Source: an uncultured Pedobacter sp.
GTDB taxonomy: Bacteria > Bacteroidota > Bacteroidia > Sphingobacteriales > Sphingobacteriaceae
Length of the DNA stretch: 47,651 bases
Direction of reading: 5' to 3'
NCBI RefSeq assembly: GCF_946480185.1
Contig: NZ_CAMLIG010000032.1
Coordinates: forward strand, 1-47,651
The notes below the pieces were generated by a model. That model ran no database searches, was not told the origin of the DNA, and was given only the letters and a program-made list of their open reading frames with translations. Shown here in pieces: positions 3,674-24,857 of this stretch (the stretch's first letter is position 1; every line of letters starts with the position of its first letter). Made by a program: the position numbers and the translations under genes.

Positions 3674-5011
3674 TTAGTATTTGTGTAGTTCGAAGGTAAT
3701 TAATTTTTTGCTGTTTAAATCTACTTTATATCTGTCATCGCTTCTAAAACCGCAAATCCATATAATTTCTCCGTTGCCGTTTACCAATATAGGGATTTGA
3801 GCTTTTTGTTGTAGCGGAATTTTTTGACTGATAAAATAGTCGCTTAGCTTTTTAACACCTTTCATCCCAAAAGGTTTAAAAATATCTCCTTGTTCCCAAG
3901 CCCGCAACTTCAACGGAAAAACTAATTTTTCTTCCTTCACGTAGATTTTATTTTTGTTTGAAAAGTCAGGAGATTCTTGAGTTTCTTTTACGGATAAGTT
4001 GCTTTCGCCGAAATTGTAATCTCCTAAAGCCGGAATATCTTTTTCTATTAATCTTTTTTCGCTGAGTATCGGAGCTATCTCAATAAAATCTCGGTCAACG
4101 GTTAAAACATAATTTGTGCTAAAAAACTGTTTTCCGGCTTCGCCATTTAGGCAAGTCATTAAATTATCTACTTGCGTGGCATTAAATCCGTAAGGTTTTA
4201 AAAGCTCAAACAATAAAAGCTGTTGCGGATTTAAACCTAAAATATCATCGGTCTTGATTTTGACAACACCATTTTCTTGAATAATCAGTTGCGCTTTTAA
4301 GCTGGAGACACGTTCATTTAGCAATTCCTCTAGCTGAGAAAAATAGCTGATATTTTGTTTGAAAGTGTGCGCTAAAGATGGATTCAGCTGTTCCATTTGC
4401 GGAATAATATCTAAACGCAGTTTATTCCGCATGTATTTGTTGGATGCGTTTGAACTATCCTCCACATAATTAATATTGTTTCTATTGACAATTGCATCAA
4501 TTTCATCGGCTGTAAAGCACAACATAGGCCTGATAATGTGGTCGCGGTTATTTTTAATTCCGTGTAGGCCGGCAATGCCAGTTCCTCTAATTAAGTTGAT
4601 CAAAAGCGTTTCAATTGCATCATTTTGGTGGTGCGCAACCGCAATTTTATCAAAGCCTTGGCTGCTATATAACTCCCTAAAATAATCATAGCGCAGTTGC
4701 CGGGCTGCCATTTGTATGCTTATTTTTTTTGCTGAAGCAAAGGTCTCGGTATCAAAGGACTTTAAAAAAAACGGTACGTTAAAATGTTCTGCAAGTGCTT
4801 TTACAAAGTTTTCATCCCTTAAGGATTCATCGCCACGTAAGTTAAAATTGCAATGGGCAATGGCGAAGTGATAACCACATTCGGCAAAAAGAGTAGCCAT
4901 TAATACAGAATCTTTACCTCCGCTTACCGTTAACAAAACGGTATCGTTTGGGCTAAAAAGCTGGTTGCTATTTATGAAATCTGTGAACTGCTTTTTTGCT
5001 GATAACATCAT
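3674..5011 (-). CDS. tilS: tRNA(Ile)-lysidine synthase
   Basis: 445 residues. The N-type ATP-pyrophosphatase loop SGGKDS is at residues 30-35, followed by IAHCNFNLRGDES, the AVAHHQNDAIETLLINLIRGTG block and EDSSNASNKYMRNKLR, all diagnostic of TilS. A C-terminal TilS_C domain (LKLRAWEQGDIFKPFGMKG, LSDYFISQKIP) completes the full-length form. The enzyme converts C34 of tRNA-Ile(CAU) to lysidine so that it reads AUA; it is essential. The start MMLSAKK offers two adjacent Met codons. It is divergent from the OstA-like gene with only 47 bases between the starts, so their promoters must overlap. Confidence 0.95.
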   Translation of the reverse strand: MMLSAKKQFTDFINSNQLFSPNDTVLLTVSGGKDSVLMATLFAECGYHFAIAHCNFNLRGDESLRDENFVKALAEHFNVPFFLKSFDTETFASAKKISIQMAARQLRYDYFRELYSSQGFDKIAVAHHQNDAIETLLINLIRGTGIAGLHGIKNNRDHIIRPMLCFTADEIDAIVNRNNINYVEDSSNASNKYMRNKLRLDIIPQMEQLNPSLAHTFKQNISYFSQLEELLNERVSSLKAQLIIQENGVVKIKTDDILGLNPQQLLLFELLKPYGFNATQVDNLMTCLNGEAGKQFFSTNYVLTVDRDFIEIAPILSEKRLIEKDIPALGDYNFGESNLSVKETQESPDFSNKNKIYVKEEKLVFPLKLRAWEQGDIFKPFGMKGVKKLSDYFISQKIPLQQKAQIPILVNGNGEIIWICGFRSDDRYKVDLNSKKLITFELHKY

Positions 5012-5058
5012 TCAAAATTAACCGTTTAAAATCGTTAGTAAAAAACTAATTTTGCTGC

Positions 5059-7275
5059 GTGAGAAAATATTTATTGTTTTTACTTTTTATTGGCTTTTCC
5101 TTGGCCTCGGTTGCACAGCAAGTTACTCGTGTAGAATTGTTGCAGTCCGAGTCTTTTATAGGTTTAAAAAGAAACGGAGAAAACACAAATAAGGTGATTA
5201 AGCCTGTGTTTAAACAGGATAACGCTACATTAGTTTGTGATAGCGCTTACTTTTACCTCACTCGAAATAGTTTCGAGGCTTTTGGAAATGTTCATATCAA
5301 CCAAGCTGATACCATAAATATTTACTCAGATAATTTAAATTATGATGGAAATACCAAAACGGCTGTTTTAACCAATAACGTAAAATTGACGGATAACCAG
5401 GCTATTTTGACCACCAATAACTTAGTTTATAATTTAGGGACAAAAATTGGGCAGTACCAAAACGGCGGTAAAATTGTGAACGGCGCTAATACCTTAACTA
5501 GCCAAAACGGCTTTTATTTTACAGAAAATAAGGATGCTTTTTTTAGGTACAACGTGGAGGTGAGATCGCCAGATGTGTTGATTAAGTCGGATACTTTAAA
5601 ATATAATACCATTTCTAAAATCGCTTACTTTTTTGGTCCAACAAATATTTATGGTAAAACCGATACTTTATATACTGAGAACGGCCAATATAATACTTCA
5701 AACGATCAGGCATCTTTCGGGAAAAAGAATTTATACACCCAAAACTCAAAAAGTTTAAAAGGCGACAGTTTGTTTTACGATGGCATACAAGGCTATGGAA
5801 GAGCGGTTAAGAATATTGTTTTTTTAGATACCGCCCAAAAAATTGAGCTACGTGGTGATTTAGGAGTTTACAAAAAGAAGGATGAGAGCATTACAGTAAC
5901 TAAAAATGCGTATGTGATTTTTTTAACGCAGAAGGATTCTTTAACCAAAGACAGCATTTGGCTTACCGCCGATACTTTGAAAAGCAAAGTATTAACGAAG
6001 ATGGCGCTTTATCAGCTTCGCGAAAAAACACGTTTAGCAAGTTTGCAAATTACCGCGAAAGCTGATAGCTTAAAAAATGGAAGCGCAGATAATACCGAGG
6101 AGGAAACTGTAGCAGACCCGCCGGTTCCAGTTTTAGCCAGCGCCACTGATAGCACCTTAACTGATAGCGCTAAAATTGCGCTTTCAAAAGACAGTTTGCT
6201 CGCCCGAAAGGACAGCTTAATTGCCCGAAAGCAGTTTCTGAAAGACAGTGTTTTAAACGCTAAAGAATTACAAAAAAAGGAGAATGACCGTTTGCGTGAG
6301 GAAAACAAAAAACCTAAAGCATTGGCTATTCCAATTGTTACCAGAGCGCCGAGTAAAACGATGATATGGCCCGCTTTGGCAGAAAACAACAATAAATTGG
6401 GCTTGGTTCCTATACGGGTGAAAGAAAAAAAAGTGGACCCAAATTTTGTGCCTTTAGATTTTGATGCTACAGATACGACCAAGATTAGGGTGGTTTCTGC
6501 CTATAAACAAGTGAAGATTTTTAAATCTGATTTGCAGGCAAAAGCAGATTCGGCATTTTTCAGCTATGGCGATTCAACCCTACGGATTTACCAAAAACCT
6601 ATAGTTTGGGCGCAGGGAAGTCAGCTTTCTGCAGATACGATGTATATCCAAATGAAAAACAAAAAAATGGATAATTTGGATATGATCAAAAATTCCATTA
6701 TTGTAAATACTGATAAGGATTCGGTTAAGTTTAACCAAATTGCCGGTAAGCTGATGAAAGGTTATTTTAAAAATGAAAAGCTGGATGTGGTTTTTGTAAA
6801 CGGAAATGCCGAAAGTATTTATTTCCCGAAAGACAGCACAAACAGCCAAGGGATGATGCGTTCAATAGCTTCGCGAATGCGGATTAATTTTGCTGATGAC
6901 AGCGTAATGAGCGTAACTTTTATCCGTAAGCCAGAGCATACTTACTACCCGATAGAAAAGATGACGGAGGAGCTAAAAACACTTCCAAACTTTAACTGGA
7001 AACCCAAAGAGCGTCCGAAATCAAAATTGGATATTCTGCCAAGTTTAGCCGTTAAAGCCAATAGCAAAACCGGAGTGAAAAAAACAGTCAAAAAAGTGTC
7101 TGTTACAAAAAAGCCTGCAAAAGTTACTAAACCCGATACTAAAACTTCGGTGAAACCAATTGCTAAGCCGGAAGTAGCGGATACAACCGCAAAGCCAATT
7201 AAACTTGGTCCAGAATATAATGATAGGGTTAAAAAAGCAGCGCCAGCTTATGAACCGCCTAAAAAAGATGAGTAA
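5059..7275 (+). CDS. OstA/LptA-like periplasmic protein of the LPS transport type
   Basis: 738 residues starting at GTG, with a signal peptide (MRKYLLFLLFIGFSLASVAQQ). Residues 30-340 hold repeated short beta-strand units (CDSAYFYLTRNSFEAFGNVHI, DNLNYDGNTKTAVL, KSDTLKYNTISKIAYFFG) of the OstA/LptA/LptD jelly-roll kind. A linker with DSLLARKDSLIARK repeats (about 370-400) leads to a second beta-rich part, then a Lys/Pro/Ala-rich tail (about 660-738). LptA-type proteins bridge LPS across the periplasm. The gene is much longer than LptA and has no LptD barrel. A TAATTTTG box at 5047-5054 sits only four bases before the GTG, so either the box is chance or the mRNA is nearly leaderless. The 3' end overlaps the convergent GNAT gene by 28 bases. 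Confidence 0.8.
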   Translation: MRKYLLFLLFIGFSLASVAQQVTRVELLQSESFIGLKRNGENTNKVIKPVFKQDNATLVCDSAYFYLTRNSFEAFGNVHINQADTINIYSDNLNYDGNTKTAVLTNNVKLTDNQAILTTNNLVYNLGTKIGQYQNGGKIVNGANTLTSQNGFYFTENKDAFFRYNVEVRSPDVLIKSDTLKYNTISKIAYFFGPTNIYGKTDTLYTENGQYNTSNDQASFGKKNLYTQNSKSLKGDSLFYDGIQGYGRAVKNIVFLDTAQKIELRGDLGVYKKKDESITVTKNAYVIFLTQKDSLTKDSIWLTADTLKSKVLTKMALYQLREKTRLASLQITAKADSLKNGSADNTEEETVADPPVPVLASATDSTLTDSAKIALSKDSLLARKDSLIARKQFLKDSVLNAKELQKKENDRLREENKKPKALAIPIVTRAPSKTMIWPALAENNNKLGLVPIRVKEKKVDPNFVPLDFDATDTTKIRVVSAYKQVKIFKSDLQAKADSAFFSYGDSTLRIYQKPIVWAQGSQLSADTMYIQMKNKKMDNLDMIKNSIIVNTDKDSVKFNQIAGKLMKGYFKNEKLDVVFVNGNAESIYFPKDSTNSQGMMRSIASRMRINFADDSVMSVTFIRKPEHTYYPIEKMTEELKTLPNFNWKPKERPKSKLDILPSLAVKANSKTGVKKTVKKVSVTKKPAKVTKPDTKTSVKPIAKPEVADTTAKPIKLGPEYNDRVKKAAPAYEPPKKDE

Positions 7276-23547: not shown

Positions 23548-23645
23548 CTCATGTCGATTCAATCGACACGTTATTTTTTCATGTCGATTTTTTTGATTAT
23601 TTTCGACACGTTATTTTTTCATGTCGATTCAATCGACATATAAAA
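23548..23645. repeat. Palindrome array, left copy, upstream of fic
   Basis: Three palindromes: ATGTCGATTCAATCGACAC (23551-23569), a 29-base version with a T-rich centre (23581-23609) and ATGTCGATTCAATCGACAT (23621-23639). Two identical 11-base spacers GTTATTTTTTC separate them. The array ends within 15 bases of the fic ATG, so a bound protein would block transcription or translation. The same 98-base module follows the gene. Confidence 0.85.
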
Positions 23646-23654
23646 AAGAAGAAA

Positions 23655-24749
23655 ATGAAGAAATTCGATAAAAATAAACCTTACAATGCTTTACCGCCAC
23701 TGCCTCCAAAAGCCAATTTAGAGAGCATTGAGATTTTAAAAGCAAGCATTGAAGCCAATAAGCTTTTGGCCGAGTTGAAAGGTTATTGCCAAACACTCCC
23801 TAATCCCAATTTATTGCTAAACACCATTGTTTTGCAGGAGAGTAAGGAATCCAGCGCTATTGAGAACATTGTGACCACACAGGATGAGCTTTACCAAGAA
23901 ACCTTGCGTATTTCTGATACCATTAAAAACGCAGCGGCAAAAGAGGTAATCCAATACCGCGAAGCCATGTACTGGGGTTTGGCCGAAATGCAGAAAAAGG
24001 GATTTATCACTACCAATTTATTGGTGGGCATTATGCAACGCTTAAGAAATACCGACGAGAACATAAGAAATACACCCGGCACAAAGTTGGCAAATCCAAG
24101 TAATAAACAGGTGGTTTACACTCCACCAGAAGGCGACCAAATCATCCGCGAAAAGCTGAAAGAATTAGAACAGTTTATGAACGACGAGGAATTCTCTGAT
24201 TTGGACGGTTTGATTAAAATGGCTTTAATACACTATCAATTCGAAGCTATCCACCCATTTTCTGACGGAAACGGTAGAACCGGCAGGATTTTAAATGTGC
24301 TTTACCTTATCAATCAAAACTTAATTGGTTTGCCGGTTTTGTATTTGAGTTATTATATCATCCAAAACAAATCTGATTATTACCGTTTGTTAAGAGAGGT
24401 TACTGAAAAAGGAAACTGGGCAGAATGGGTGTTGTTTATTGTAAAAGGAGTGGGCGAAACAGCTGCTTTGACGCTAAAAAAAATCAATGCTATTTTACAA
24501 TTGAAAGCAGATTCTGAGGAGAAGATAAAGAAAGCGTTAAAAGCATCCTACTCAAGGGAACTTTGCGATTTATTGTACAGCTATCCGTACATCAAAATAA
24601 AAATTTTAGAGGAACATAATATTGCCAAGCGACAAACGGCTTCAGAATATCTCAAAAAATTAGAAAAGGTAGGTTTTTTAGATACCGTTAAAATTGGGAA
24701 AGAAACCTATTATATCAATAAAGGTTTGATGGATATTTTATCAAAATAA
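23655..24749 (+). CDS. Fic-domain AMP-transferase, class II, with C-terminal winged helix
   Basis: 364 residues. The Fic core motif HPFSDGNGRTGR starts at His200. The inhibitory motif (S/T)xxxE(G/N) is present before the core as SSAIEN (Glu70-Asn71), making this class II: the helix blocks ATP until displaced. The C-terminal 80 residues (ILEEHNIAKRQTASEYLKKLEKVGFL) look like a winged helix-turn-helix. Fic enzymes attach AMP or another nucleotide part to target proteins. The gene lies alone after the arginine operon, between two 98-base palindrome arrays; the winged helix is a natural candidate to bind them. The AMPylation target is unknown. Confidence 0.92.
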   Translation: MKKFDKNKPYNALPPLPPKANLESIEILKASIEANKLLAELKGYCQTLPNPNLLLNTIVLQESKESSAIENIVTTQDELYQETLRISDTIKNAAAKEVIQYREAMYWGLAEMQKKGFITTNLLVGIMQRLRNTDENIRNTPGTKLANPSNKQVVYTPPEGDQIIREKLKELEQFMNDEEFSDLDGLIKMALIHYQFEAIHPFSDGNGRTGRILNVLYLINQNLIGLPVLYLSYYIIQNKSDYYRLLREVTEKGNWAEWVLFIVKGVGETAALTLKKINAILQLKADSEEKIKKALKASYSRELCDLLYSYPYIKIKILEEHNIAKRQTASEYLKKLEKVGFLDTVKIGKETYYINKGLMDILSK

Positions 24750-24759
24750 GTCCCGATTT

Positions 24760-24857
24760 CTCATGTCGATTGAATCGACATGTTGTTTTTACGTGTCGAT
24801 TTTTTTCTATTTTTTCGACATGTTATTTTTTCATGTCGATTCAATCGACATATAAAA
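24760..24857. repeat. Palindrome array, right copy, downstream of fic
   Basis: Same module as at 23548-23645: ATGTCGATTGAATCGACAT (24763-24781), a 29-base version (24793-24821) and ATGTCGATTCAATCGACAT (24833-24851), with 11-base spacers. Order, lengths and orientation are the same; both arrays are followed by ATAAAA. The first and middle palindromes carry a few substitutions. Confidence 0.85.

Follow-up and report, generated by a model that had tools for sequence, protein, structure and literature searches.

The fic locus and its flanking arrays

The window considered in this computational work, that is, the whole stretch of 47,651 nucleotides of DNA from an uncultured Pedobacter sp. (contig NZ_CAMLIG010000032.1), contains a fic gene bracketed by two arrays of palindromes. 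A repeat search of the window identified a pair of 98-base direct repeats, 90% identical and 1212 bases apart from start to start, with fic as the single gene between them, which confirmed the arrangement described in the first-pass annotation. The features of the locus are the following:

23548..23645, no strand: left (upstream) array, predicted operator (repeat search; geometry shared with other fic loci)
23552..23568, no strand: left array, short palindrome 1, TGTCGA-N5-TCGACA (motif search)
23582..23608, no strand: left array, long palindrome, TGTCGA-N15-TCGACA, with an A/T-rich interior (read from the sequence)
23622..23638, no strand: left array, short palindrome 2, 16 bases before the fic ATG
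23655..24749, forward strand: fic, encoding a SoFic-type protein adenylyltransferase of 364 aa (Fic_N, Fic and SoFic-like_C domains)
24252..24287, forward strand: Fic motif HPFSDGNGRTGR (read from the translation; form of the motif according to PMC9755527)
24510..24725, forward strand: C-terminal winged helix (SoFic-like_C, residues 286-357), proposed DNA-binding domain (domain search)
24621..24653, forward strand: proposed recognition helix IAKRQTASEYL (residues 323-333), a segment that covaries with the half-site
24760..24857, no strand: right (downstream) array, predicted operator (90% identity to the left array)
24764..24780, no strand: right array, short palindrome 1 (motif search)
24794..24820, no strand: right array, long palindrome (read from the sequence)
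24834..24850, no strand: right array, short palindrome 2 (motif search)

Each array is made of six TGTCGA half-sites in a fixed layout, with palindromes of 17, 27 and 17 bases separated by 13-base spacers. The long palindrome of 29 bases and the 11-base spacers initially reported correspond to this same 17-13-27-13-17 layout, counted one base wider per side. The sequence TGTCGATTNAATCGACA is present in four copies in the window and in none of 100 dinucleotide shuffles (two mismatches allowed). Of the 87 positions of the array, 10 differ between the left and the right copy, and the 36 half-site positions are all identical in both. The left array ends 9 bases before the fic ATG, and 10 bases separate the fic stop codon from the right array. 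The neighbors of fic are a gene for an M20 peptidase (read as argE) and one whose product matches no Pfam family. In a scan whose models do not include Bacteroidota promoters, promoter-like matches around fic stay at chance level (5, vs. 5.5 in shuffles). In addition, a Flavo-1 RNA (RF01705; 23430-23514, minus strand, 49.3 bits for a cut-off of 42) lies between argE and the left array, and Flavo-1-like sequence was recognized by eye 3' of argE in several relatives.

The encoded Fic protein

The product of fic matches the Fic_N, Fic and SoFic-like_C domains, all three above the Pfam cut-offs, and aligns over its full length to SoFic structures, its relatives in the PDB being 9vjc, 9tc4 and 3eqx. 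Its score against the NCBIfam SoFic equivalog (NF046030) is 438.7 bits, which does not reach the cut-off of 550, and for this reason the protein is denoted here as SoFic-type and not as SoFic. An N-terminal inhibitory motif, SSAIEN, can be read in the translation, the form of this motif being (S/T)xxxE(G/N) according to PMC9755527. The AKRQTAS stretch of the proposed recognition helix is also found in the two best aligned PDB matches, 9vjc and 9tc4.

Distribution of the array in bacterial genomes

A collection of genomes from 84,980 species was scanned with the array core as the query, leaving the spacer free between 10 and 16 bases. The core was found in 21 stretches from 20 genomes, belonging to several phyla, and the spacer was of 13 bases in all 21 stretches although 10-16 were allowed. 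In 14 of these 20 genomes, which were retrieved on the array sequence alone and again cover several phyla, fic adjoins the array core. In the remaining six, the core lies beside a phage coat gene (L001), genes for AhpC and a cNMP-binding protein (L003), tRNA synthetase and peptidase genes (L004), a type I restriction gene (hsdR) and an ATPase gene whose Fic-like_C match is weak and below the cut-off (L015), AbiEii (L017) or a helicase (L019). When the genomes were searched as a whole with three mismatches allowed, 17 of the 20 gave a match, with a single array locus per genome (the assemblies may be incomplete); the array is therefore not a dispersed repeat, and a REP- or MITE-like element with many copies per genome was discarded.

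Within the family to which the window belongs, the array is present in 6 of 151 sampled genomes. The position 3' of argE is a variable spot, occupied by differing sequences in L221, L222 and L225-L233; in L229 and L230 these include weak matches of the Fic-like kind. In L007, four tandem long palindromes with short ones interspersed are found upstream of one fic (4805-5079). The fic copies at L005 and L013 (genomes G005 and G012) each contain an internal stop codon, their arrays being still well kept.

A BLAST search with the 98-mer gave no matches in annotated phages or in E. coli, and only four weak ones in Streptomyces plasmids. Fic relatives were found in 22 of 50,697 annotated phage records (all below 60% identity), in 262 of 72,556 plasmid records and in 45 of 5,426 E. 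coli genomes (DNA search, with another fic as the query). Eight places from these three collections were read (L418-L425). In the E. coli chromosomes at L421 and L422, fic lies between a gene of the cytidylyltransferase family and a partial, broken copy that carries the annotation glycerol-3-phosphate cytidylyltransferase; this arrangement looks like an insertion accompanied by a duplication. No partner gene common to all array loci was found within 8 kb in the bacterial and viral set; the commonest clusters at this distance are the P22-like coat gene (21 loci) and the gene that follows it (20 loci), followed by fic and another gene family, at 18 loci each.

Half-site classes and the recognition helix

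More distant genes of the SoFic family also present upstream arrays of similar layout, made of other half-sites, such as TGTATA, TGTTAA, TGTTCA or TGTAAA. These loci were examined with a de novo array detector that is blind to the half-site and was applied to 91 distinct loci (94 less three duplicates). Arrays were detected at 49 of the 91 loci (upstream at 40, downstream at 18 and on both sides at 9), and in the upstream region the detector score was matched in any of 20 mononucleotide shuffles at only 3 of 94 loci. The detector found no array at the other 42 loci, which include those of L390, L419 and L422, whose proteins have a TGTCGA-type helix. Among the loci taken from the annotated collections (L418-L425), two passed the detector, five failed and L421, from E. 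coli, is degenerate. Nine of the 49 loci have a detected array only downstream of fic, an arrangement that a simple promoter operator leaves unexplained.

The half-site changes together with the proposed recognition helix. Helices of the AKRQTAS type and close variants go with TGTCGA, SR(L/I/M)TATKYL and its relatives with TGTATA, SRPTAT with TGTAAA, (S/T)RLTASRYL with TGTTCA, SRATATRYL with TGCTCA or TTCTCA, and SRQTAAKYL with TGTTAA. Across 58 loci, the distance between half-sites correlates with that between recognition helices (r = 0.77), and the correlation persists when controlling for the catalytic domain (partial Mantel r 0.69, a value reached in 0 of 2000 permutations), while that between half-site and catalytic domain, given the helix, is 0.10. 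These 58 of the 91 distinct loci include L250, L265, L271, L272 and L275, whose half-sites were assigned by eye with a detector score below 15, and leave out L198 (with TGTCGA arrays downstream), L258, L393, L408, L417 and L421, which do have a score of 15 and were omitted either for their ambiguity or through an oversight. In nearest-neighbor prediction, the half-site was correctly assigned at 45 of 58 loci from the helix and at 47 of 58 from the catalytic domain and, since both predictors perform about equally, shared descent explains part of the association.

The geometry and the conservation of the arrays were evaluated separately. In a histogram of 6-mer pairs at 37 loci (some of the TGTCGA class and one a duplicate), inverted pairs are raised at distances 21 (33 pairs) and 19 (24), for a mean of 6.4, as predicted by the geometry, and also at 2 (29), 23 (21) and 17 (20); they are not raised at 11, the short-palindrome distance (6), or at 51 (8). 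For direct pairs, the raised distances are 30, 40 and 70, together with 41 and 201. When the window and five close relatives were aligned blind to the half-sites, identity upstream of fic was 0.85 in the half-sites, 0.73 in the rest of the array and 0.57 outside (two of the relatives having another layout), and the corresponding downstream values were 0.98, 0.70 and 0.44. In the set of 110 non-redundant sites from all sources, for which the search pattern fixes 18 core bases and leaves the fourth half-site free, the motif ends sharply, with little conserved beyond it.

A predicted operator for SoFic-type genes

From the sequence and geometry of the arrays, the conservation of their half-sites and the covariation with the helix, we infer that the arrays are very probably specific and cooperative binding sites of the SoFic-type Fic protein whose gene they flank, and that this binding represses fic. 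The possibility of an autoregulated switch acting through the C-terminal winged helix, raised in the first-pass annotation, is thus strongly supported by inference from the helix covariation and the arrays of similar geometry, with other half-sites, found at other Fic genes. In the proposed model, Fic dimers would bind the TGTCGA half-sites by means of the C-terminal winged helix, with AKRQTAS within the recognition helix. Since the upstream array occupies the stretch immediately 5' of the start codon, the binding of Fic there would repress the gene and keep the toxin low. The downstream array would provide additional sites, which may serve for DNA looping, for the local retention of the protein or for shutting off read-through transcription. 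Binding to DNA might, in addition, move the enzyme away from its AMPylating state, for which CbFic2 (see below) offers a precedent, in which case the array may restrain not only the gene but also its product. With its readable helix-to-site code, the predicted operator opens the control of SoFic-type toxins to direct testing, and the code may allow the prediction of operators from protein sequence across this defense family. A literature search, in which preprints were absent and subscription journals sparse, returned no recognized report of the array or of phage copies of Fic operators.

Array copies in phages

The array core, TCGACA-N13-TGTCGA-N15-TCGACA, is present in at least 120 viral stretches, while the control patterns with reversed half-sites or shifted spacers were found once each in the same set. 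Fic was found in 2 of 149 viral loci and in 2 of the 50 array-carrying viral records that were searched whole (records that may be fragments). A free-standing regulator of the SoFic-like_C type was considered and rejected, given that the domain exceeded the cut-off in 2 of these 50 records, both of them with fic, and that two more matches remained below it. The first-pass annotation took the occurrence of the module at many sites with no fic gene nearby as refuting its proposal; such occurrence is not observed inside these bacterial genomes (17 of the 20 matched), although it is in phages. We would read these solo arrays as a case of operator mimicry, rather than as refuting the binding of Fic.

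For a phage family with a P22-like coat protein, the best 80 of 206 coat relatives were retrieved, and the scan for arrays covered the 71 of them that have 500 or more bases of downstream sequence. An array (score 15 or more) was found at 22 of these 71 loci, where it separates a small gene from the one that follows; the other members show at this spot either nothing or an unrelated hairpin. In 16 non-redundant arrays, chosen by half-site score, the half-sites are 88% identical, vs. 43% for the 13-base spacers. At the same spot, arrays of the TGTATA or TGCATA class were recognized by reading in L350, L357, L371, L372, L374 and L375, and these have a 14-base spacer, as do the Fic loci of the same class L256 and L263. 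No Fic was found in the coat-family loci among the best 80 of 206 relatives. The exact TGTATA-class pattern with the 14-base spacer occurs in four viral contigs, one of them that of L350, and no Fic was found in the available DNA of the four. The TGTTCA core occurs in 15 viral contigs, few of which resemble full arrays on reading. The 60-base unit is also found in frame inside different phage ORFs (L045, L050, L059, L060 and L119), encoding a peptide like VHAIDISQERVDETAKDRHE with unlike flanks.

It is conceivable, though we put it forward tentatively, that phages carry these gene-less operators of the SoFic family as DNA decoys, that is, as a counter-defense. The amplified phage DNA would offer many sites able to hold Fic dimers, and the AMPylating toxin bound to the decoy could be turned off or converted into a de-AMPylating enzyme by a switch like that of CbFic2. 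The presence of TGTCGA- and TGTATA-class arrays at one phage spot is what would be expected if phages track the Fic proteins of their hosts. Were the decoy reading true, the bacterial arrays flanking fic would act also as a gene-linked DNA antitoxin, and if the phage copies do bind SoFic, they would represent a protein-free counter-defense that one DNA pattern can find in many phages.

Alternatively, the phage arrays might serve the needs of the phage itself, as a terminator between coat and tail genes or as the site of another phage or host protein, their likeness to Fic operators being incidental. This explanation, which applies to the phage copies alone and can coexist with the operator model, is plausible without being the probable one. 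It is consistent with the 48 of 50 array-carrying viral records (perhaps fragments) that lack a Fic match and also a SoFic-like_C match above the cut-off, with the terminator-like look of some arrays and with the absence of the fourth half-site at many viral sites. However, it does not account well for the four-half-site unit being present in 28 viral contigs, compared to a single hit for the core control with shifted spacing, nor for the arrays of the TGTATA class, which have a 14-base spacer of their own, in four viral contigs and at the coat-family spot.

Hairpins and mobile cassettes

The palindromes could also act after transcription, as hairpins in RNA or single-stranded DNA or as terminators, for instance providing two-way insulation of fic. 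Four terminator-like matches were indeed found around fic (1.2 in shuffles, sd 1.0), three of them inside the arrays, and in the 110 non-redundant sites there is a modest excess of pairing on the hairpin axis at 7/17 (0.57 vs. 0.44 expected, shuffle fraction 0.003), as well as at 8/16 (shuffle fraction 0.02), 9/15 (0.049) and -2/26 (0.000). In some coat-family phages, such as L320, L323 and L330, reading showed that the outer TGTCGA-like halves are kept and both inner hairpin arms have changed, and because the two arms changed together a terminator role may hold in these phages. However, pairing at 6/18 shows no excess (0.34 vs. 0.40 expected), and a mild excess is also seen on the axis of the long palindrome (17/47 and 14/50), so that pairing does not point to the hairpin axis in particular. 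Moreover, the outer half-sites fall outside any such hairpin, yet their sequence and distance are kept. An RNA hairpin was thus rejected as the main covariation signal, despite the modest pairing excess, and we consider a post-transcriptional role of this kind quite unlikely.

Even less credit is given to the notion that the arrays are recombination sites of some recombinase, fic being one of its cargoes and the solo arrays, those of phages included, empty sites or scars. The direct repeats do sit tight around fic, and fic and its arrays occur across phyla in differing neighborhoods, for example adjoining the type I restriction genes hsdS in L009 and hsdR in L018. In addition, examination of the argE position in 17 genus members, intended to reveal empty sites with one array, showed fic with arrays in five, neither in eleven, and in one a decayed solo array without fic. 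This single relative is compatible with a loss of the gene, for which recombination between the arrays would be one candidate cause. The mobile cassette also envisaged in the first-pass annotation fares poorly for several reasons: the 17 of 20 genomes that gave a match have a single array locus each; no recombinase associated with the module was noticed, as an incidental observation; the half-site changes with the recognition helix of Fic, which is unexpected for a recombinase site; the arrays are located on one side, on both sides or in tandem; the phage coat family carries arrays with no Fic found (best 80 of 206 relatives); and two operator classes share one phage spot. These observations make a cassette very unlikely.

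Comparison with known systems

The operator model for the window fic can be compared with systems described in PMC9755527, PMC12249575, PMC10628234, PMC3985639 and PMC7319586. The closest precedent for the regulation is CccR of Yersinia pseudotuberculosis, a Fic toxin of Class II that carries a C-terminal HTH; it uses inverted repeats to repress its own promoter and requires a dimer for DNA binding (PMC9755527). As in the window fic, the palindromic sites lie directly upstream of the gene. However, the CccR site consists of a single pair of 10-bp boxes with a spacing of 26 bp, instead of multi-palindrome arrays on both sides; the available part of PMC9755527 mentions no phage copies, which the arrays of the window type do have; and the identity between CccR and SoFic is low (29% at 45% coverage; PMC9755527). 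In the crystal dimer of CccR the DNA-binding helices are 70.2 Å apart (PMC9755527) which, at about 3.4 Å per base pair, is close to the 21-base center spacing of the long palindrome; this is a comparison by arithmetic and not a test, and the boxes of CccR itself are spaced differently.

The window Fic belongs, over its full length, to the same family as SoFic and the Sofic anti-phage system (PDB 3eqx, 3zcn, 9tc4 and 9vjc). The C-terminal domain of E. coli Sofic is required for toxicity, and how SoFic-type toxins stay quiet and get triggered was called elusive (PMC12249575). The available text of that report describes neither DNA binding nor a sofic operator, whereas the window fic has a predicted one; as of 2023, DNA binding of SoFic had not yet been demonstrated, according to PMC10628234. 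In AbiE, a type IV toxin-antitoxin system, the antitoxin AbiEi autoregulates via inverted repeats (PMC3985639, PMC7319586). Two proteins are involved there, and it is the antitoxin that binds DNA, while in the case of the window Fic the DNA binder and the toxin would be one and the same protein.

Finally, CbFic2 is likewise a Fic enzyme with a C-terminal winged helix and an activity that is altered by DNA, and it was proposed to pass from an AMPylating monomer to a de-AMPylating dimer on DNA (PMC10628234). The difference is that this involves random DNA, with no specific operator, and that the reported target is histone H3 (PMC10628234). DNA also stimulated AMPylation by some CbFic2 mutants (PMC10628234), and therefore DNA may affect a SoFic-type protein in either direction. 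Because of the precedents set by CccR, CbFic2 and Sofic, the array could restrain both the fic gene and the protein that it encodes.
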